Assembly (NCBI GenBank): GCA_030077755.1
Contig: JAQJZZ010000020.1
Location: 930,001 to 994,000, forward strand
Source: Filosporella fistucella
Lineage: Eukaryota > Ascomycota > Leotiomycetes > Helotiales
DNA: 64,000 nucleotides
Direction: 5' to 3'
The position numbers and the translations under genes were made by a program. The notes under the pieces are model-generated. The model worked only from the letters and a program-made list of their open reading frames with translations, was not told the origin of the DNA and did no database searches. Positions 16,194-30,743 of the stretch are shown here, piece after piece (position 1 is the stretch's first letter; each line of letters begins with the position of its first letter).

Positions 16194-19100
16194 GGTGGTG
16201 GTTAATGGTATGAATGCGGTGGATTTGGATCTAACTGCGACAAAGACGGCGCTCTCTTCCTCTTCTACCACGATTCGTCTTGGGAGCTTGCATACACTTG
16301 AGGAGAGGCTATCAAAGAATGGTGGGTGTCTCGGTGAAGATGGTTCTCTTTTCACACAGGCTGACTGTTTGGAACCCAGAAATAAATCAGCGATTGTTTC
16401 CACCTCTACTTCAACTTCTGTTCGGTACCTACCCTTACTACCACGACAGAAATTCTCGGCGAGGCGTGGAGCGATGCATACGAACAATTTTCGGTTCTGG
16501 GTGTGTTCCAGAAGCACTGGCAGACTTTGTTAGAACAATTCATGCGGAAACACTCAAGCAGGGTCTGGCCCCCGGGAACGCCTTTGTTTTGGTTGAGTGG
16601 TGCAGCATATTACTTCAGGAAGTGAGTGGAACAGACAATTGGGCAAAATGGGGTCTTCAGACAATTGAGAGCAGTGCTAGGGCACTCGAGCTATGTCTCG
16701 CTGGATCAGCTAGGGCGAATGTGAAGCACTCAGCACTTGTCATCACTAGGCGCGGGGTTCGGAAAGCCTTCTCACATAGTGATTCAAGACAGCAAGTTAT
16801 TGAGGAGGCTGTCCAAAAGTTGTCTTCCAAAGGGACACAGCCTTCATCCAAGAATGCTGTCATGCTGGGAGTCATTGCCGGGGTATGCGCCAGAAGTCCT
16901 TTGGCAAAAGATATTCTCAAAAACAAAACCTCCGAATATTATGCTTTCTATATTAGGGAGATAATTAGCTCAAGAACACCTGTACCAGCCCACATATCTA
17001 CTGCGCTTGGGGATTTCTTCGAGACCTTTACGACCAAAGAGGATTTGGAGAAGGAGATAATTCCAGCACTAGAAAAGGCCCTCCTGCGTGCCCCAGAAAT
17101 TGTTCTCAATGACCTGGTTACGCCAATGTTACAAGCCCTACCCGATTCTATGGATATCTCGAGTATACTTCAGAAGAATCTGCTGAAACCACTACTCACC
17201 AACACTAAATCTACAAATCCTTCCATTCGTCAAGGTGCGGTATCAACATTCAAAACTGCTGTTGAGAAATCTCATGATGCCAATATTATGGCCCAGATTG
17301 CCGAGGAAGTACTTGCCCCCTTGAAAGCCGGCAAGTTGCCCTCTGCAGACCAAAGAGCTACACATGCAGACATGCTCGCAGCACTGCCTGTGTCTCAAGA
17401 TATCATGGCCAAGGTTGCCCCTGCATTTGCTACCGTAGCTGGGAAAGAAACTAACGAAGCGGCTCTTATCTCAGAGACTGCAGCACTCCTACATTATGTG
17501 ACGTGGGGTGTTCTAAATAGCATCGAATTTGATAAGCAGGTCATTGACTCTTTTGTCAAGGGTCTCTCTGACAAAAAAGTTCCCACTAGAAGACTTTGGG
17601 CAATCCGTCTTGGCGAGCTATTCTGGGCTACGAGCGATATTGGTATCTTGAAGTCAAGCCTGTCGAAGCTTGCAGAATCAGCCATACCAGCTTTGGTCGA
17701 TATCTGGCAAGAGGTTATCACGAACCCGCTTGCTGCGGCGCAATCTGGCCTCGTTACTGTAGCTTATGTCATTACAGCTCTGTCGCAATCTAAGCTTAAT
17801 TTTATGGGCATTTCAAAAGTTGATGCGAGCCTGAAAAAGGCGCAGATTGAGCGGCAGTCCTTGATCATGGAGCCAAAGCCATCTTTCTTGCTAAACCAGC
17901 GGATCTATGGCAAGCTTACCAGCGCTGATGATTTCAAATGGTTCATCAGAGCTCTATCTTCGGTCTCACAAAACCTTGATGCCATTGAGCCTGATTCAAT
18001 AGTCGCATGTGGCTGGTCACAAGCTATGATATATTGCGTAGCTTCATCAGCTGTCAAACCTGCAATTCGTCGTGGGGCATGCACAACAATTTCAAGACTG
18101 TATCTCCAACATCCACAAACTATCTCCAGAATATTGGTCAAGGGCCTGTGGAACTGGCTCCAAGCTGTCGACACGGGCGAGAAAGATAGTGCAGCCCTTG
18201 CCGCTAAAACTGAGGCGCAGAGTCTGCATCATATCGTAAAGTCTTTCTGTTTGTCACCGAGAGAAGTTGATCACCTTGGTGGGCGAGTAGATAATCTCAC
18301 ATTGGAGAAGCAAATGATCTCAATGCTGGTCTTGTCCCGCCCAGAATTGCTTCCCAAGGTCAATTGGATAGAATTGTGCCTGAGAGTTGGTATTGATCCA
18401 GGAGCCTTAGCTGAGAATCACACGGAATCCTTGTTGGAACAGATATTGGGCTGTACTAGTTTCATAGAAAATGTACGTTTCCCAGAAAGCTTTGTTTGCC
18501 AGAGACTAATTGTTTTTTCAGGTACCAGTTCAGCAAACCAACAATGTCAAGATTGCCGCCTTCAATGCTGCCGCTGAGCTTGCATTCGTCGCTCCGCAAA
18601 CCATGATTCCTCGAATCGTACAACTCTTGAGGGATGACCTCGATCCATCTCAACTAGCCAATGTTGGACCCACAGAGGCAGCTATTTTCAGGACGCAGGA
18701 CGGGACTGCTTTTGTCGATGTCTTGGCTTCAAAATCTCAAGCTTTCGTACCTAACAAGAATACTAAAGACTATGACACACTTAAATGGGAAGCTGATCTA
18801 CGGGCACAACTTGCCCAGAAAAAAGGCCAGCAGAAAAAGTTTACTCCTGAAGAGGCTGCCAAGGTCAAAGTCCAATTGAAGAAAGAAGCAGATATTCGCT
18901 TGCAAGTCCGCTATCTGGAAGCAAAACTGCTTCGTGGTTTCGGCATCATCAAAAGTCTTGCCACTGGACCCCCGACTGAAGCCGGGCTCTGGATGGGACC
19001 AGCAGTCAAAGCTTTGGTGGACGTCATTACTGCTGGTGCTGGGCTCATAACTGGTAATGCTGCGCCTGATGCTTACATTCTCTGCGCCGAACGACTTCCG

Positions 19101-22100
19101 AGCCGTATTGGCGCACTCAGACCCTTTATAGGCATTGGAACCCTAAGAGGTCTTGATGTCCCAAACCTAGCGGAAAATCTGGTCCAGGAACCGCTCGGTG
19201 CTCTCATCACGCGAGTGCTATACCGTCTCCGATTTTCTGCAGAACAGCGCCCGTTTGATACTGTATCCCTCACCTACATCCTGCCACTGGTATTTCTTGT
19301 CTTGCAGAAAGGTGGATTCGGTGGCACTGACGATGCAGAGGCTCAATTAGTTCTCGCGCTCGAGTTTCTTTCATTTCACACAGATGCTTGCTCCGACATC
19401 CTTGTCCCTCGGGAAGAGGTTTTATCAGTACTCATATCCTCGATGCAGACATATAATCAACACTACAAACTTATCAAAGACTGTCTTTCGGATCTTTGTC
19501 GCTGCATTGCACCAAATATCACGAATAAAGAAATTTCCATTCTGGCTCGTGGAGCAATTGTGCCACAAGTCGCCGTTCGTACTTCTGTTCTACAATCCAT
19601 TAGCGCAGAGATAGACATGAGTGAGCTCGACTTTTCAGAAGAGATCTGGTTAGCTTGTCATGATGATGTAGATGAGAATGTCGAGATTGGTCGTGAGATC
19701 TGGGAGGAAAGTGAGTTCGAGGTCTCCGTAGAGACACCATTCAAGATGTTACCATACCTTGAGAGTGTGGATAAACAGCTTCGTAGAGCAGCAGCTAGAT
19801 CATTAGCGAAGTCCGTCCAGATACAACCAACAACGTTCCGAGATGTAATCTCAAAATTGCAATCTTCATATCAGGAGCTCGCAAAACCCCGGGTTCCACA
19901 GCTCGACGAATATGGAATGCCCAGGAAAATGGATCTGTCGGATCCATGGGAGGCGAGAAATGGCATTGCCCTTGCGTTCAAAGAGCTGGCGACGGTATTC
20001 GAGGAAAGTCTGTTGGACGACTTCCTTCGTTTCTTGATCGAACAAGGGCCTCTCGGCGATCGAGATCCTAATGTCAGGGAAGAAATGGTAGAAGCAGCAA
20101 CGACAATCATCGCGAGTCACGGCAAAGACAAAGTCGAAGCTCTCATGAAGACCTTTGAGCATACATTGGAGGCTCCTGACAAGGGATCTGATTTCGCTGA
20201 TCGAGTGAACGAAGCCGTTATCATCATGTATGGCGCTTTAGCTCGTCACTTAAACGCAGGGGATCCCCGGGTGCCAAAGGTTGTCGACAGGCTTTTGGAG
20301 ACTCTCAGTACTCCCTCAGAAGCCGTTCAATATGCGGTAGCGGAATGTTTACCCCCGCTTGTACGTGCATCGAGCGATAACTTGCCTGAGTATATCCAAC
20401 ATGTTCTTGATCAACTTTTCAATTCGAAGAAATATGCGGCTCGACGAGGTGCAGCTTATGGGCTTGCTGGCATCGTCCACGGCAAAGGCATCTCCGCTTT
20501 AAGAGAGTTCCGTATCATGTCGACTCTGAATGGTGCTATCGAAAACAAGAAAGACGTGAATCACAGAGAAGGCGCGCTCTTGGCCTATGAACTGTTATCC
20601 ACAATCTTGGGGAGGATATTTGAGCCTTACGTCATTCAGATCGTGCCTCAATTACTTGCAAGTTTTGGTGATGCCAGTGCTGACGTTCGAGAAGGCTGTC
20701 TGGCAGCAGCCAAAGCCTGTTTCGCAAGTTTAAGCTCATACGGCGTGAAGAGAATTCTCCCTGTCCTTCTTGATGGGCTAGATGAATCACAATGGCGCAG
20801 TAAGAAAGGTGCATGTGATTTGCTGGGAGCAATGGCATATTTGGACCCTCAACAACTTGCTCAAAGCTTACCAGAGATTATTCCACCGTTGACTGGTGTA
20901 CTTAATGACAGTCATAAGGAAGTTCGTCTGGCTGCAAATAGAAGTTTGAAGCGCTTTGGAGAGGTCATAAACAATCCTGAGATCAAGGGCCTTGTGGACG
21001 TACTCTTGAAGGCCCTGAGTGATCCAACCAAATACACAGACGATGCTCTCGATGCCCTCATCAAGGTGTCTTTCATCCATTACCTGGATGCACCTTCTCT
21101 TGCTCTGGTGGCACGTATTCTGGAGCGAGGACTGGGAGATCGCTCAGCTACGAAGAGAAAATCAGCCCAAGTTATCGGAAGTTTGGCACATTTGACGGAG
21201 CGCAAAGATCTGGTAGCTCATCTTCCTATTTTAGTTGCGGGTCTCAAGGTTGCCATCGTCGATCCAGTTCCAACTACTCGCGCTACTGCTTCCAAAGCAT
21301 TGGGCTCTCTCATCGAGAAATTGGGCGAAGATGCTCTACCTGACCTTATCCCAGGATTGATGCAGACACTCAAATCAGACACCGGAGCAGGAGACAGGCT
21401 TGGATCTGCTCAAGCACTTAGTGAGGTCCTTGCTGGACTCGGGACAAGTCGCCTGGAGGAAACCCTACCAACAATCTTGCAGAACGTTGCATCTTCAAAA
21501 CCCTCTGTCCGCGAAGGATTCATGTCACTTTTCATTTTCTTGCCAGTATGCTTTGGCAACGGTTTCGCCAACTACCTCAGCAAAATCATCCCCCCTATTC
21601 TCTCAGGTCTTGCGGATGACGTTGAGTCTATCCGAGACACATCTCTCCGAGCTGGCCGTCTTCTCGTCAAGAACTTTGCCACTCGTTCTATTGATCTTCT
21701 TCTTCCAGAACTGGAGCGTGGTCTTGCTGATGATAGCTACAGAATTCGTCTCAGCTCAGTCGAGCTTGTGGGCGATCTCCTCTTCAATCTCACTGGAATT
21801 AGTGCAAACACGGAACAGGATGAAGTGGAAGACGGAGCACAGGAAGCTGGAGCATCCCTGTTGGAAGTGCTTGGAGAGGAGAAGCGCAATAAAGTCTTAT
21901 CCTCTCTCTACATATGCCGCTGCGATACTTCTGGCCTTGTCCGTACCGCTGCTATTAATGTTTGGAAGGCTCTGGTGGCCAGTATGTACCATTTCTTTAC
22001 AATCCTCGTCTGGTAACAAGTTACATTTTCATGGGTGCTCTCTCCTTAAGTGAGGCTTGAGGTACCCTGAGCTCCTTCCTTCTACTAAAATGTAGCACGA

Positions 22101-25100
22101 CTTTCGGGGCGCCCCTTCCCTCGGTGGAAGAGTGCCCCTCAATCTTCATTCGCACCCTTAGAAATCTTTATCTCCAACAACATCGTGCAAATAATCCCTT
22201 GGACTGGACAATACCTTCACTCTCATCTGGGTTTGCGGCCACGGTCGACCATTCTGCATCTCGAGAGCTGGTGGTGGTTTGATTTGAACAACATACATGC
22301 AATCTTGGTAAGTTGAACACTCCTCATCGCGATCTCGATGACGCTTGAGTGGAGTTGGACAGTGTCCGATTCCATTCTCCATGCATCACCCGCTAAGCAA
22401 ACGTATAGTTCGAATACATAAAGATCTCCAAGCAGCACAGCACAGGTCGTTGTCAAGGTAAGCTCAGATCTCTCCTTATAGAGGCCATCTATTGAAAATC
22501 GGTTACCCAAACCAATCGACCCCGCCGATTTGAGCTGAAATTGTGGCTCACGATTGCCGTCACTTGCTAATTTTGCTCTACAGATCCCTTGTATCGGGGT
22601 CTTCAGGCGTGAAGCTTGAAAAGTACTTTTCGCTCCGCCTCATCTGGCACTCTAAGGCTCTCGATCAACCCAATATGGAGTCTGCTACGTCGTGTAATGT
22701 GGTCTCAACCATTCTCCAATTTTTCTTATTGATGACCTGGACTTGTTTGAACGACACTCCGAACTCTAGACAAAACCCATTATTCCTTGCTTACATGGCA
22801 ACCCGAGCCGACCTCGAAGACATCGCATCGCTGGCCAGCATTTCCTTCGCCGAAGGGCTTTTTGACGTTCTCCAAGCCACCACTCCACCTTCCATTGATT
22901 ATTTTAAGACGCTTTCAACCCAAACTCTGGCTTGCTGGGCTGTCTATGTTCTGGTATTGGAGAAAACCGGCTGCCGCCCTCGACTATACATTGGAAGTGG
23001 GACAAATTCCAATACTGGACTCCGAGATAGATTCTCTGAGTACAATAACCTCCATGCCTTGCCTAGATTTGTCGAAGATTCTATCAATGAGGGCTTCCGG
23101 ATAGCTCATAAGGCGCCTTTGTGCTGGATCGATATACCAACCGCCTCAATGGTTCCCTACCATCGCTTGCTGATCATTGCTCTCGAGGCCACATTCGCTT
23201 ACCTGCTATGGGCGATGAAAGCAGTCTCCAAAGACTTTGGAATGGGACACCTCGCTCTCTGGGACCGATTCAATCTTCCGTGGGACGGGCTCTGCTCCCA
23301 TTGTTGCTTAACTGAATCAATTCGTGGCGATTTTGGTCTCACAGCTGAGGAACTGGAGTCTTTGTCTGCCGAAAAGAAATGGGCGCAAGCTCAACACAAG
23401 GCAGAGTACAATCTGGAATACCAATATGCCCAGAAAGAAGCCGATCCGGAGGAATACCGAAAGCGCAACCGAACTTCCAAGGCAAATATCAGAGCCAGAA
23501 GCCCAGACAGGCTCAACAAGCTCAACAAGGACTGGAAGCGGGAAATCAAGGCATCAAAGAAGTACTTCTGCACAGCCTGTAAAGCGGCTTTCGCTTCACC
23601 ACAAGAACTCGAGGATCATTATCTCAAACCAGGCCACCTCAATAGAGCCCGCAAAGAAGCAAAGGCAAAGACGCAACCCTTCTACTGCAAACAATGCATC
23701 TACGGAACTAAAAATAGCTTCCATTTTCATGCCCATCTCAACAGGCCTAGTCACCACAAAATGGTCGCCGCTTCTTTGAAGGAGGAAGAGGAGTTGGTTG
23801 AGGATCAGGAGAGCTTTCCGGAGCTTGACTGATCATATTCCACCTGTGAGAGTTCCTTTTGGACCGAATCGACAGCGTCGATCGAGGGAACATCGCTATG
23901 TCAAAAGTACTTTTCGTGAGTCTTTTCCCTCCCCGTCATGATTCTGGGAGACTACTATGGTCTTGATTGGACGCTTCTTAATGGAGGTCCTCTATTGAGA
24001 TTCAATAGACCGATTTAAGAAGAGATCAGGTCTTCCAAACCGTATCACTTACTGATCAAGCAACAGGTCAATTATGTCAAATGCCAATGCATCGCGCTCG
24101 CTCATCGGCGCGAAATTATCACTACTCTGTCATATTGGAACCCTGGACCTGGAATCATTTTCATTATGTTCTTATCACACATTTCATGTTCATCAACACT
24201 AATCACAAAACAGGCCCTAGAACCTTGAAAGAGCTTATTCCCACGTTGTCTCAACTTATCATTCGGAGATTGGGAAGCTCTAACATGGAACAGAAGGTTA
24301 TCGCAGGTAATGCTCTTGGAGAATTGATCCGGAAGGCTGGTGACGGCGTCCTTTCAAGCTTGCTCCCGACCCTCCAGGAAGGTCTTGAGACATCTACTGA
24401 CACCGATGCCAAACAAGGAATCTGCATAGCGCTTCGGGAATTGATCTCGTCCGCTTCACCCGATGCTTTGGAAGACCACGAAAAGACCTTGATCTCTGTT
24501 GTTCGCACCGCATTAATTGACTCTGACGAAGATGTTCGGGAAGCCGCTGCCGAGGCATTTGATTCTTTGCAACAGATTCTTGGAAAACGAGCAGTTGATC
24601 AAGTTCTCCCATACTTGCTGAATCTACTACGATCCGAGGACGAAGCTGACAATGCATTGTCTGCTCTTCTTACCCTGCTTACTGAGACGACGAGGTCCAA
24701 CATCATTCTACCAAACCTGATCCCAACACTTACCACGTCTCCCATCTCATCGTTCAACGCAAAGGCACTGGCTTCCCTGTCGACTGTCGCAGGCTCTGCC
24801 ATGACACGGCGATTGCCCAGCATCCTGGGTTCCTTGATGGATAACATTATCTCCTGCAAGGACGAGGAGCTCAAAGCCGATCTTGATTCCTCCTTCGATA
24901 CCGTTGTCCTTTCTATTGACGAATTCGATGGCTTAAATACCGCCATGAGCGTACTTCTAGCCCTTGTGAAACACGATGACCACCGAAGAAGAGCAGCTAC
25001 AGACTACCACCTTGCGAAATTTTTCAGTGCCGCTACGGTCGACTATTCTAGGTACAACCAAGATATAATTAGAGCATTGCTCATTTCATTCGATGATAGC

Positions 25101-26619
25101 GATACCGAGGTCGTTAAGGCTGCGTGGACAGCCTTGAACGAGTTCACCAAGAACCTAAAGAAGGAAGAGATGGAATCGCTTGTATACTCTACCCGGCAAA
25201 TTCTACAGCATGTTGGGGTGGCTGGCTCTAATCTTCCTGGATTTTGTTTGCCAAAGGGTATCAATGCAATTCTGCCGATTTTTCTCCATCCCCTCATGAA
25301 TGGGACAAGTGAGCAGAGAACACAATCTGCTTTGGCGATATCCGATATCATTGACCGTACGAGTCCAGAGGCTTTGAAGCCATTCGTAACTCAGATTACT
25401 GGTCCACTCATTCGAGTTGTGTCCGAGCGGTCGGTAGACGTCAAAGCTGCGATTCTTTTGACCTTGAATAACCTGCTGGAGAAGATTCCGGCCTTTTTGA
25501 AGCCCTTCTTGCCCCAGCTTCAGAGGACGTTTGCGAAATCCTTGGCTGATCCGTCAAGTGAAGTTCTCCGCACAAGAGCCGCCAAAGCTCTTGGGACGCT
25601 CATTACTTTGACCCCTCGTATTGACCCATTGATTGCCGAGTTAGTCACAGGCTCTAGAACATCAGATTCGGGTGTTCGGAATGCGATGCTGAAAGCATTG
25701 TACGAGGTTATCAGCAAAGCAGGCGGGAATATGAGCGAAGCCTCGAGAAGTGCAGTTCTCGGTCTAATCGACACAGATTCGGAGGACAATGACGTATCAA
25801 TGGCCATCACCAACGCGAAGCTGCTCGGTGCCCTTATCAAGAACGTCCCCGCCGATAATGCTGTCGGCCTCATCAAGAACAGAGTGATACCCAGCCATTT
25901 CAGTCAACCTTCGGTACTGGCGCTTAATGCAGTATTGCTGGAATCTCCTTCTTCTTTGACTGAGTCTACATTTGCAGATGACCTGCCAGCAGTCATCTGC
26001 CAAGGCATATCGAGTAAAAACGTATGTATGATCTAATGTAAATTACATGGCAAGCACTAACAACTTACAGAACTTCATCTCGGACAATTGTATACTCGCT
26101 GCCGGCAAATATCTTCTCTCGGAATCCCGTACAACAGATTTTGAGACTCTCAAGCCTCTATTCGAGGCATTGGCGAAGATTATTCAGCCAGGCAATCCAG
26201 TGGATTCGAGGCGTCTTGCTCTGGTCGTCGTTCGTACAGCATGCCGCCATCACATGGAGATTGTACGCCCTCATCTCTCCTTACTTGCAACACCAATATT
26301 TGGAAGTGTTCGTGATTCGGTTATCCCAGTCAAATTGGCGGCTGAGGCTGCCTTCATGGCTCTCTTCAATGTCGTCGATGAGGAGAGCAAGGTATTTGAT
26401 AAATACCTGGCTACACAGGACCTGGCTGCGAATCAGAAGAGAACCATGCAAGATTACTTTAAGCGTGTGGCTTTGCGACTGGGAAATACAGCCCGTGAGC
26501 GTAGGGAAGCAGAGGGCGGACAAGGCGGCTTGGGACTCTCAAATGATGAAGTTGATGATGAGAGAGAAATATGGAGCATTGGGAAGGTGGATTTAGGTGA
26601 ATCAGCTTTCGATGAGTGA
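16186..26619 (+). CDS. GCN1: GCN1, eIF2-alpha kinase activator (HEAT-repeat protein)
   Basis: Exons 16186-16321, 16380-18472, 18522-21981, 24214-26021 and 26071-26619 sum to 8046 nt and 2681 residues, the usual GCN1 size. GCN1 binds translating ribosomes with GCN20 and delivers the uncharged-tRNA signal to GCN2, which phosphorylates eIF2-alpha; it acts in the cytosol. The protein is almost wholly HEAT repeats. The EF3-like block (for example AARRGAAYGLAGIVHGKG) is intact, as is the conserved tail region with SNMEQKVIAGNALGELIRKAGDG. Introns 1, 2 and 4 are 58, 49 and 49 nt. Intron 3 (21982-24213) is 2232 nt, interrupts Ser 1897 in phase 1 and houses a nuclease ORF. The junction gives ALVAS/PRTLKEL, the expected conserved sequence. 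It starts 220 bp from the divergent helicase and has an overlapping uORF. Confidence 0.95.
22458..22583 (+). other. possible internal intron in the nested nuclease transcript
   Basis: A GTAAGC donor at 22458, a GCTAAT branch-like element near 22566 and a CTACAG acceptor at 22583 would form a 126-nt intron in the leader of the nested ORF. Another perfect GTAAGT donor is at 22318. These suggest the ORF may have its own transcript, or alternative splicing within the long GCN1 intron. Confidence 0.3.
22795..23832 (+). CDS. GIY-YIG endonuclease with two C2H2 zinc fingers, nested in GCN1 intron
   Basis: With the ATG at 22795 the product is 345 residues; an in-frame ATG at 22675 would give 385, and the frame is open back to a GTG at 22543. 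The nuclease core reads WAVYVLV (Tyr 51), LYIGSG (65-69), GLRDRF with Arg 77 or 79, and a helix ALEATF with the candidate metal-binding Glu 131. A charged linker (about 185-255) follows. Two zinc fingers have C-x2-C-x12-H-x5-H spacing (Cys 259/262, His 275/281; Cys 298/301, His 314/320), the U1/matrin-like spacing. This is the arrangement expected of a site-specific DNA endonuclease: cleavage domain, linker, DNA-reading fingers. No stop or frameshift is seen, so recent activity is possible. It is not SLX1 (different layout) or Penelope (no reverse transcriptase). I believe similar proteins are multicopy in Leotiomycetes, but cannot check. Confidence 0.8.
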   Translation: MATRADLEDIASLASISFAEGLFDVLQATTPPSIDYFKTLSTQTLACWAVYVLVLEKTGCRPRLYIGSGTNSNTGLRDRFSEYNNLHALPRFVEDSINEGFRIAHKAPLCWIDIPTASMVPYHRLLIIALEATFAYLLWAMKAVSKDFGMGHLALWDRFNLPWDGLCSHCCLTESIRGDFGLTAEELESLSAEKKWAQAQHKAEYNLEYQYAQKEADPEEYRKRNRTSKANIRARSPDRLNKLNKDWKREIKASKKYFCTACKAAFASPQELEDHYLKPGHLNRARKEAKAKTQPFYCKQCIYGTKNSFHFHAHLNRPSHHKMVAASLKEEEELVEDQESFPELD

Positions 26620-28987: not shown

Positions 28988-30743
28988 ATGTCTCTCTTCA
29001 GGGGAGCATCGAGGTCCATTGTGAGAGCTACTGCTTGCAGAGCTACTCCAATATGTGGTTCGAGGCGAGCTGCATCCTCGATGACAGCAGAGTCTCAGCA
29101 GAAGGTAAGTGAGTCTTTGTCAGGTTTCGGCATTTCTTTACTGATCGAGGTCTACACAGTTATTATCTGCGGATCTAGAACATGCCGACCCGGCAATTTG
29201 GAATATTTTACAGAATGTATGACTCCCTGTCCCATGAAGCTAGACCTCAGAAACTCACAAAGCTGCAGGAGAAAAGAAGGCAGAAGCACTTCATTAACCT
29301 CATCCCATCCGAAAACTTCACCTCCCAAGCAGTCCTCGATGCACTTGGAAGTGTTATGCAAAGTACGTTTTGCCAGTAAAGTGGGGTGATTTCAGACTGA
29401 TTTTGGTAGATAAATACTCCGAAGGTTATCCGGGAGCAAGATATTATGGCGGTAATGAATTTATTGATGAAGCAGAGAGACTGTGTCAATCCCGTGCTCT
29501 GCAGACGTTTGCATTGAAAGATACTGAGTGGGGCGTCAATGTTCAACGTATGTGCTTCATGCAATTGACTTTCCAGCCTTGACTAACATTCGCAGCTTTA
29601 TCTGGATCTCCTGCCAATCTCTATGCGTATTCCGCCCTCCTCAATACGCATGACCGAATCATGGGACTGGACCTTCCTCATGGAGGTCATCTTTCCCATG
29701 GATATCAGACCCCTACAAAGAAGATCTCTGCCATTTCTAAATACTTCGAAACTTTCCCATATCGTTTGGACGAGTCGACCGGACTGATCGACTATGCCAA
29801 ATTGGAGGAAATGGCTACACTATACCGACCAAAGATTATCGTTGCTGGTACATCTGCCTATAGTAGACTAATTGACTACCAGCGCATGAGAGAGATTGCC
29901 GACAAAGTCGGGGCCTATTTATTAGCAGATATGGCTCACATTTCCGGCTTGGTGGCCGCCAAGGTTATACCAACTCCATTCGAGTACGCCGATGTAGTTA
30001 CCACAACTACTCACAAGTCACTTAGAGGTCCTCGCGGCGCTATGATCTTCTTCAGGAAGGGAGTACGTAGAGTCAACCCCAAGACTAAGGAGCAAGAGAT
30101 GTGGAATCTTGAAGAACCAATCAACTCATCCGTTTTCCCTGGGCACCAAGGTGGACCCCATAATCACACTATCACAGCATTGGCTGTAGCTCTCAAGCAA
30201 GCGCAGAGTTCAGAGTTCAGATCATATCAGGAGGCCGTCCTTTTAAACGCTAAAGCGTTCGCCAAACGCTTAGGTGATTCTAAAGATAAGGGTGGACTAG
30301 GTTACACAATCGTATCTGGTGGAACTGACAATCATCTGGTTCTTGTTGATCTCAAACCCCAAGGGGTTGATGGTGCCAGAGTTGAGAGAGTCTTGGAACT
30401 GGTAGGCGTTGCAAGTAATAAGAACACCGTCCCCGGCGACAAATCAGCACTGAAGCCAGGTGGATTGAGAATGGGCACCCCGGCTATGACAACAAGAGGG
30501 TTTCAGCCAGAAGATTTTATTCGTGTGGCAGATGTGGTGAACAGAGCTGTCACGATCACTCAACGTCTCGATAAGACTGCGAAGGAAGCATCGGAAGCGA
30601 AAGGGAGAAAGAATCCTGGGAGCGTGAAAGCTTTCTTGGAATATCTTGGCGAAGGTGAGAACGAAAGAGAAATCGTCCAATTGAGATCTGAAGTTGAAGA
30701 ATGGGTTGGTACATTTTCGCTACCCTGGGAGTCAAGTACATAG
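28988..30743 (+). CDS. SHM1: serine hydroxymethyltransferase, mitochondrial
   Basis: Exons 28988-29104, 29160-29216, 29269-29362, 29410-29547 and 29596-30743 give 517 residues. The enzyme is PLP-dependent and interconverts serine and glycine with tetrahydrofolate, feeding one-carbon metabolism. Residues 1 to about 40 ([19 protein letters not shown]...) are Arg/Ser/Ala-rich with no acidic residue at first, a typical mitochondrial presequence. Conserved blocks are [36 protein letters not shown], the PLP-binding lysine in [14 protein letters not shown] (about residue 275), [11 protein letters not shown] and GTPAMTTRG. All four introns are 47-55 nt. The exon junctions fall inside invariant motifs (for example VMQ/NKYSEGY), which makes the model firm. 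Confidence 0.95.

Follow-up and report, generated by a model that had tools for sequence, protein, structure and literature searches.

Predicted GIY-YIG zinc-finger nuclease genes in spliceosomal introns of conserved genes of the fungus Filosporella fistucella

The GCN1 gene of Filosporella fistucella contains an intron that is far longer than its neighbors and that holds an open reading frame in the same orientation as the host gene. This raises the question of what the nested gene encodes, and of how such a gene might persist inside an intron of a conserved nuclear gene. We addressed this question with one assembly (45.77 Mb in 19 contigs), whose gene content suggests a filamentous fungus. 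Positions refer to the window, i.e., the whole stretch of 64,000 nucleotides that was analyzed (C18:930001-994000), and the features are collected in Table 1.

The GCN1 reading frame is broken at 21982-24213, and the joined flanks encode ...WKALVA/SPRTLKELIPT... (the slash marks the junction). As read in the sequence, the interrupting segment begins with GTATGT and ends with ACACTAATCACAAAACAG. When the spliced GCN1 product was compared with a solved chain of 2898 residues found in ribosome entries of Chaetomium (E 3e-55), the junction was free of gaps; the single gap lies about 50 residues upstream of it. The record names this chain Ribosomal protein L19; we take it to contain Gcn1. The initial annotation had proposed a GCN1 intron of 2232 nt with GT and AG ends, and the GTATGT start and the gap-free spliced junction uphold that proposal. 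It had also put the sibling introns at 49-58 nt. Our pattern scan agrees at two frame changes, with candidates of 58 (or 69) and 49 nt, but gave no candidate intron at a third, near 18.5 kb. Across the three host genes considered here, candidate neighboring introns measure 49 to 90 nt in a pattern scan of 8 stretches, 5 of which contained one or two candidates and 3 of which contained none. No Rfam family matched positions 21800-24400 at E <= 5.

Table 1. Coordinates of the GCN1 locus, the nested gene and its further copies
Feature	Position	Strand	Remarks
GCN1 coding, 5' of intron	18510..21981	+	open frame, exon start not fixed; Pfam HEAT_GCN1_fung E 4e-38, HEAT_EF3_N E 3e-62
GCN1 host spliceosomal intron	21982..24213	+	2232 nt, GTATGT...CTAAT...CAG; gap-free junction in spliced product; no Rfam match at E <= 5
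Palindrome GGACAGTGTCC	22357..22367	+	13 nt before candidate 5' ATG
Candidate 5' coding exon of nested gene	22381..22457	+	prediction only
Nested nuclease gene	22675..23832	+	385 aa plus stop; open frame, N-terminus homologous to both paralogs
GIY-YIG catalytic domain and flanking parts	22837..23274	+	about residues 55-200 of the 385-aa protein
Candidate catalytic residues	Tyr91, Tyr105-Ile-Gly107, Arg119, Glu171		385-aa numbering
C2H2 finger 1	23569..23637	+	Cys299 to His321; pattern, invariant in three paralogs
C2H2 finger 2	23686..23754	+	Cys338 to His360; pattern, invariant in three paralogs
3' non-coding flank	23833..23972	+	homologous to flank of pyruvate carboxylase copy; palindromes 23868-23882, 23903-23914
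GCN1 coding, 3' of intron	24214..26033	+	open frame; Pfam HEAT_GCN1 E 1e-16, HEAT_GCN1_C_2 E 4e-16
Next candidate GCN1 intron	26022-26070	+	pattern scan
Intron holding copy 2	L006 7521-5749	-	1773 nt; copy intact; host identified as pyruvate carboxylase by its spliced product
Intron holding copies 3 and 4	L007 6086-4322	-	1765 nt; copy 3 intact, copy 4 broken; host clathrin heavy chain

The sense ORF in the GCN1 intron is open from 22534 to 23832, and the longest sense frame has 432 codons, whereas none of 300 mononucleotide shuffles gave a frame longer than 201. An intact sense ORF had been annotated correctly, with the exception of its start: this had been placed at ATG 22795, and N-terminal homology to two paralogs moves it to 22675, so that the gene is better read as 22675-23829, encoding 385 amino acids. 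It is possible that the gene has an additional 5' exon, beginning at 22381, with its own intron; the predicted exon would be in frame with the nested ORF if the 126 nt of 22458-22583 (GTAAGC...CTACAG) were removed.

Protein searches across the entire host genome (45.77 Mb), whose counts are lower bounds, found at least four copies of the nuclease gene, of which three are intact and one is broken. The first intact copy is that in the GCN1 intron. All four are in sense with their host gene, inside enlarged, predicted spliceosomal introns of conserved genes, and none of the four is free-standing. The initial annotation had named homologs confined to free-standing genes as a reason to doubt its interpretation, and this is contradicted within this genome. 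The broken clathrin copy lies just upstream of an intact, divergent copy, to which it is 34% identical over 85 residues. The pyruvate carboxylase and clathrin genes are themselves neighbors on contig C9, with their introns about 6.8 kb apart. The junction of the spliced pyruvate carboxylase product is free of gaps; four residues past it, the product lacks a single residue relative to the human chain. Judging from the predicted spliced products, the insert appears in all three host introns to be placed such that the host gene still works. The spliced clathrin product has one extra residue at the junction relative to animal chains, which would fit an insertion that was not precise, although fungal clathrin may normally have this residue.

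If sense introns make up about 2-3% of such a genome, as we estimate, three independent sense-intron placements would arise by chance with a probability of roughly 1 in 100,000, although independence is uncertain for the two on C9. Weak matches on C16, C3, C12 and at C9:2905676 (best E 0.0036) were rejected as copies, as the tblastn matches at these places cover zinc-finger stretches and nothing of the GIY-YIG part. Searches for relatives in IMG/VR (P0001, alignment A2) and in GTDB genomes (A2) gave none that tblastn confirmed, a search with clathrin segments for empty-site fungal contigs present as contaminants gave none, and Rfam found no intron family in L006 and L007 at E <= 1. Among other homing families, the genome has no match to HNH_3 and none to LAGLIDADG_1, the type to which WHO nucleases belong. 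Its single Pfam GIY-YIG match, at C11:1023319-1023465, may be this genome's Slx1, a repair enzyme.

We then considered what the nested protein is likely to do. The four candidate catalytic residues do not vary among the three intact paralogs, and neither do the eight Cys and His of two C-x2-C-x12-H-x5-H fingers. Both fingers had been claimed initially and are borne out, and Pfam zf-C2H2 gives weak matches to the nuclease, below the cut-off. Of the residues first proposed (numbered from ATG 22795), Tyr51, YIG65-67, Arg79 and Glu131 occur unchanged in all three intact paralogs; Arg77 is not conserved. The residues characteristic of GIY-YIG enzymes, i.e., the Tyr of GIY, the Tyr and Gly of YIG, an Arg and a Glu, can thus be assigned to the sequence. 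Both Tyr, the Gly and the Glu align with I-TevI and SegG, while the Arg is outside that alignment's invariant list. When the domain was modeled for a paralog (pTM 0.71) and used in a structural search, the best 12 rows comprised six proteins, all GIY-YIG nucleases, one of which we take to be such, and I-TevI came first. The model has a catalytic fold of the beta-beta-alpha-beta-alpha type, as in the GIY-YIG superfamily. The absence of catalytic residues, which had been raised as a possible objection, is contradicted by these alignments, and the modeled domain matches the GIY-YIG fold.

The Pfam GIY-YIG model PF01541 did not match the nuclease at E <= 1, so it is the fold and the residues that support the family assignment. 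Because these agree with membership, we take the miss as a limit of the sequence model and not as a defining feature. With the full-length model, VIA placed I-TevI in rows 2 and 4, the remaining rows being mostly zinc fingers and long helices. Foldseek alone against the PDB had a best E of 0.9 with the full-length model, and of 0.14, to an unrelated protein, with the domain model. Against a viral library, its best match was a Chlorella virus GIY-YIG protein (E 0.036; none at E <= 0.001). NCBIfam had no match for the three intact proteins, PHROGs had only weak matches (E 0.36 and 1), and the PDB had only weak zinc-finger matches by sequence and none to profile A3. Given the modeled fold of the paralog and the candidate residues, we assign the catalytic part of the nested protein to GIY-YIG.

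The absence of Pfam GIY-YIG and NCBIfam matches, and the mean pLDDT of 52 for the full-length model, are also what might be seen if the ORF were not a GIY-YIG nuclease, or if the gene model were a product of chance or of assembly. We consider this very improbable, given that separate copies have invariant candidate catalytic residues, that the structural match is to the GIY-YIG fold, that the ORF length far exceeds that of shuffles and that the locus is unique and contiguous.

The paralogs are about 35% identical. Between them, first and second codon positions have an identity of 0.49-0.57 and third positions of 0.33-0.36; thus the proteins have been constrained while synonymous sites neared saturation. 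This codon-position pattern, with the ORF length relative to shuffles, excludes a chance origin of the nested ORF. Three of the four copies are intact despite the near-saturated third positions, which requires either selection or repeated re-invasion. Selection would be in line with an ancient GIY-YIG zinc-finger gene that was duplicated into introns long ago and has been kept, by vertical descent or domestication and without homing, for a host function such as repair or regulation. The GC3 of the copies (0.50-0.55) is near that of the hosts (0.45-0.49), which also speaks for this explanation. A host function, however, leaves unexplained both the sense-intron placement of all four copies in conserved genes and the presence of a broken copy beside an intact one in a single intron, and we therefore regard this explanation as unlikely.

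We also compared the non-coding flanks. Over 140 nt past the stop codon, the GCN1 and pyruvate carboxylase copies have a local alignment score of 52, whereas none of 1000 dinucleotide shuffles exceeded 39 and none of 1000 window segments exceeded 42. When 276 nt were compared, 4 of 1000 shuffles and 7 of 1000 window segments equaled the score of the two flanks. The two host introns therefore have in common a stretch of DNA that extends beyond the ORF, indicating that more than the ORF moved. The clathrin 3' flank is not significantly similar to the other two (score reached in 57 and 324 of 1000). The 5' flanks are mixed, the score being reached by 6 of 300 shuffles for GCN1-clathrin, 31 of 300 for pyruvate carboxylase-clathrin and 227 of 300 for GCN1-pyruvate carboxylase.

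A shared segment that exceeds the ORF could have spread by another route, e.g., by ectopic repair or by being carried along with a transposon or an element that copies introns. It might then survive only where an intron hides it, with the nuclease not being the cause of the spread. The proximity of two of the host introns fits local copying of this kind. Yet Pfam identified neither a reverse transcriptase nor a transposase when the nuclease ORF and three further frames of at least 100 codons in the GCN1 intron were scanned, the sole inverted pair found in that intron consists of two copies of one palindrome flanking the ORF, and a DNA search found the intron only once in the genome. We judge such a route to be quite improbable.

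Certain short patterns recur near the copies. TGGACNNTGTCC has 70 strand-matches in 45.77 Mb, versus 53 for the backward pattern, and 5 of the 70 (4 sites) are within the three host introns, which total 5770 nt. A GACnnnGTC palindrome followed by AAAGTACTTT is present in both the GCN1 and pyruvate carboxylase 3' flanks; the genome has 3 sites with this composite, of which these copies account for 2, and a single site with its backward control. The third site, on C15, has no gene copy. Gapped nine-letter patterns present in all three introns with at least 4 sites numbered 38, versus 0-8 in 20 shuffles, a count that includes overlapping patterns, both strands and the coding part, and the GGACNNTGTCC family was picked after being seen. 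Palindromes as a class (arms of at least 5) are in no clear excess, at 18, 18 and 7 versus shuffle maxima of 19, 19 and 18. AAAGTACTTTT may be an ordinary host site, because its 57 strand-matches genome-wide are near the control (54) and it forms clusters elsewhere. That the palindromes could serve as operators, in analogy to the autorepression described for I-TevI (PMC3943268), is only an idea.

The explanation that we favor, with a probability of about 0.7, is that the ORF is one member of a nuclear family of homing-type endonuclease genes, with a GIY-YIG cutter, a long helical linker and two C2H2 fingers for DNA binding, that lives in spliceosomal introns of conserved genes. The zinc fingers would bind an allele without the insert, the GIY-YIG domain would cut that allele, and repair from the occupied allele would copy the intron along with its gene. 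We propose that insertion would be cheap for the host, as the intron is removed by the spliceosome, and that no self-splicing ribozyme or intein would be needed. Rare cuts at related sites could seed new host genes, and old copies would decay while new ones re-invade, as may have happened in the clathrin intron. The initial annotation's interpretation is retained insofar as a GIY-YIG zinc-finger nuclease gene resides in a spliceosomal intron, a lifestyle that recurs in three host introns and four copies; the family is not specific to GCN1. It is also predicted to offer natural C2H2-guided GIY-YIG enzymes.

More tentatively, these genes might represent a further structural class of homing element, in which the spliceosome replaces the ribozyme or intein and the whole spliceosomal intron is mobile, perhaps having been born at the cut site, and repeatedly colonizes conserved exons of essential-type nuclear genes. 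If this is true, nuclease cutting would be linked to spliceosomal intron gain, selfish nucleases would have a direct route to creating new spliceosomal introns, and the hosts open to such elements would widen to nearly any intron-bearing gene. A 2020 paper describes two recognized classes of self-splicing homing element, the inteins and the intron-encoded nucleases, and places WHO elements beside them as a third class (PMC7282813). A gene that uses the host spliceosome would, if real, be another class beside these. The word "spliceosomal" has 0 occurrences in the main text of that paper, as does the stem "spliceosom" in those of PMC1564403 and PMC3943268.

The WHO elements of Torulaspora and Lachancea resemble the genes studied here in being, as described in PMC7282813, nuclear fungal homing-type genes with a nuclease fused to a zinc-finger part and tied to a conserved host gene, and in having clustered intact and decayed copies with occasional spread to other loci. 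WHO clusters are attributed there to repeated invasion and decay, which the broken copy beside an intact one in the clathrin intron resembles. However, WHO nucleases are intein-derived, and their genes are found on the downstream side of FBA1, together with a host-gene fragment, where they replace the 3' end of FBA1 (PMC7282813), whereas the cutter here is GIY-YIG and the gene is inside introns. For WHO, experiments have addressed both the cutting of the host gene and its repair (PMC7282813), while the present genes are known from sequence and models.

As in I-TevI and related GIY-YIG enzymes that home with group I introns, the nested protein is predicted to have an N-terminal cutter of this fold and a separate C-terminal DNA-binding part, although this part is of the C2H2 type here. 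I-TevI is annotated to a group I intron of phage T4; the host intron here instead has spliceosomal signals and no Rfam match, unlike a self-splicing group I intron. Penelope-like retroelements also carry a GIY-YIG domain within a eukaryotic nuclear mobile element, but join it to a reverse transcriptase (PMC1564403), which Pfam did not find in the 385-aa ORF or the frames scanned. Slx1, as described in the same paper, is likewise a nuclear GIY-YIG nuclease without the C-terminal Asn, but has a RING finger (PMC1564403). By these comparisons, the nested gene appears to be neither a WHO element nor a Penelope-like element, and to work like an intron-encoded homing gene.

Two of the three host genes whose introns carry nuclease copies, those for pyruvate carboxylase and clathrin heavy chain, lie near each other on the same strand, with about 6.8 kb between their enlarged introns. 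Despite this proximity, the two nuclease copies share only about 35% identity, and their closeness may reflect local spread or chance. Directly upstream of the intact copy in the clathrin intron is a broken GIY-YIG copy of 95 codons, which keeps the GIY Tyr, one YFG and the Arg.

Within the GCN1 intron, a 126-nt stretch (GTAAGC...CTACAG) looks like the nested nuclease gene's own intron, i.e., an intron within an intron. The GCN1 exons match PDB chain 8i9x_LR (2898 residues), whose label, Ribosomal protein L19, perhaps comes from a fused gene model. Elsewhere in the window, a reading frame resembles, by eye, serine hydroxymethyltransferase.

Four AAAAGTACTTTT palindromes cluster within a short span distant from every nuclease gene copy, and are perhaps a host regulatory site.

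Coordinates of the features (L006, L007 and L061 are host-genome stretches outside the window)
Feature	Local position	Position on C9	Strand
Candidate nested intron	window 22458-22583		
Serine hydroxymethyltransferase-like frame	window 29583-30743		
Pyruvate carboxylase enlarged intron	L006 7521-5749	C9:5351748-5353520	
Clathrin heavy chain enlarged intron	L007 6086-4322	C9:5360321-5362085	
Broken GIY-YIG copy	L007 5867-5583		minus
AAAAGTACTTTT cluster	L061 4610-5253	C9:1106609-1107252	

When clathrin is spliced at L007 about 6086 and 4322, the product reads LERGCHMG, compared with LERAHMG in animal chains, so that it has one extra residue, located exactly at the junction.
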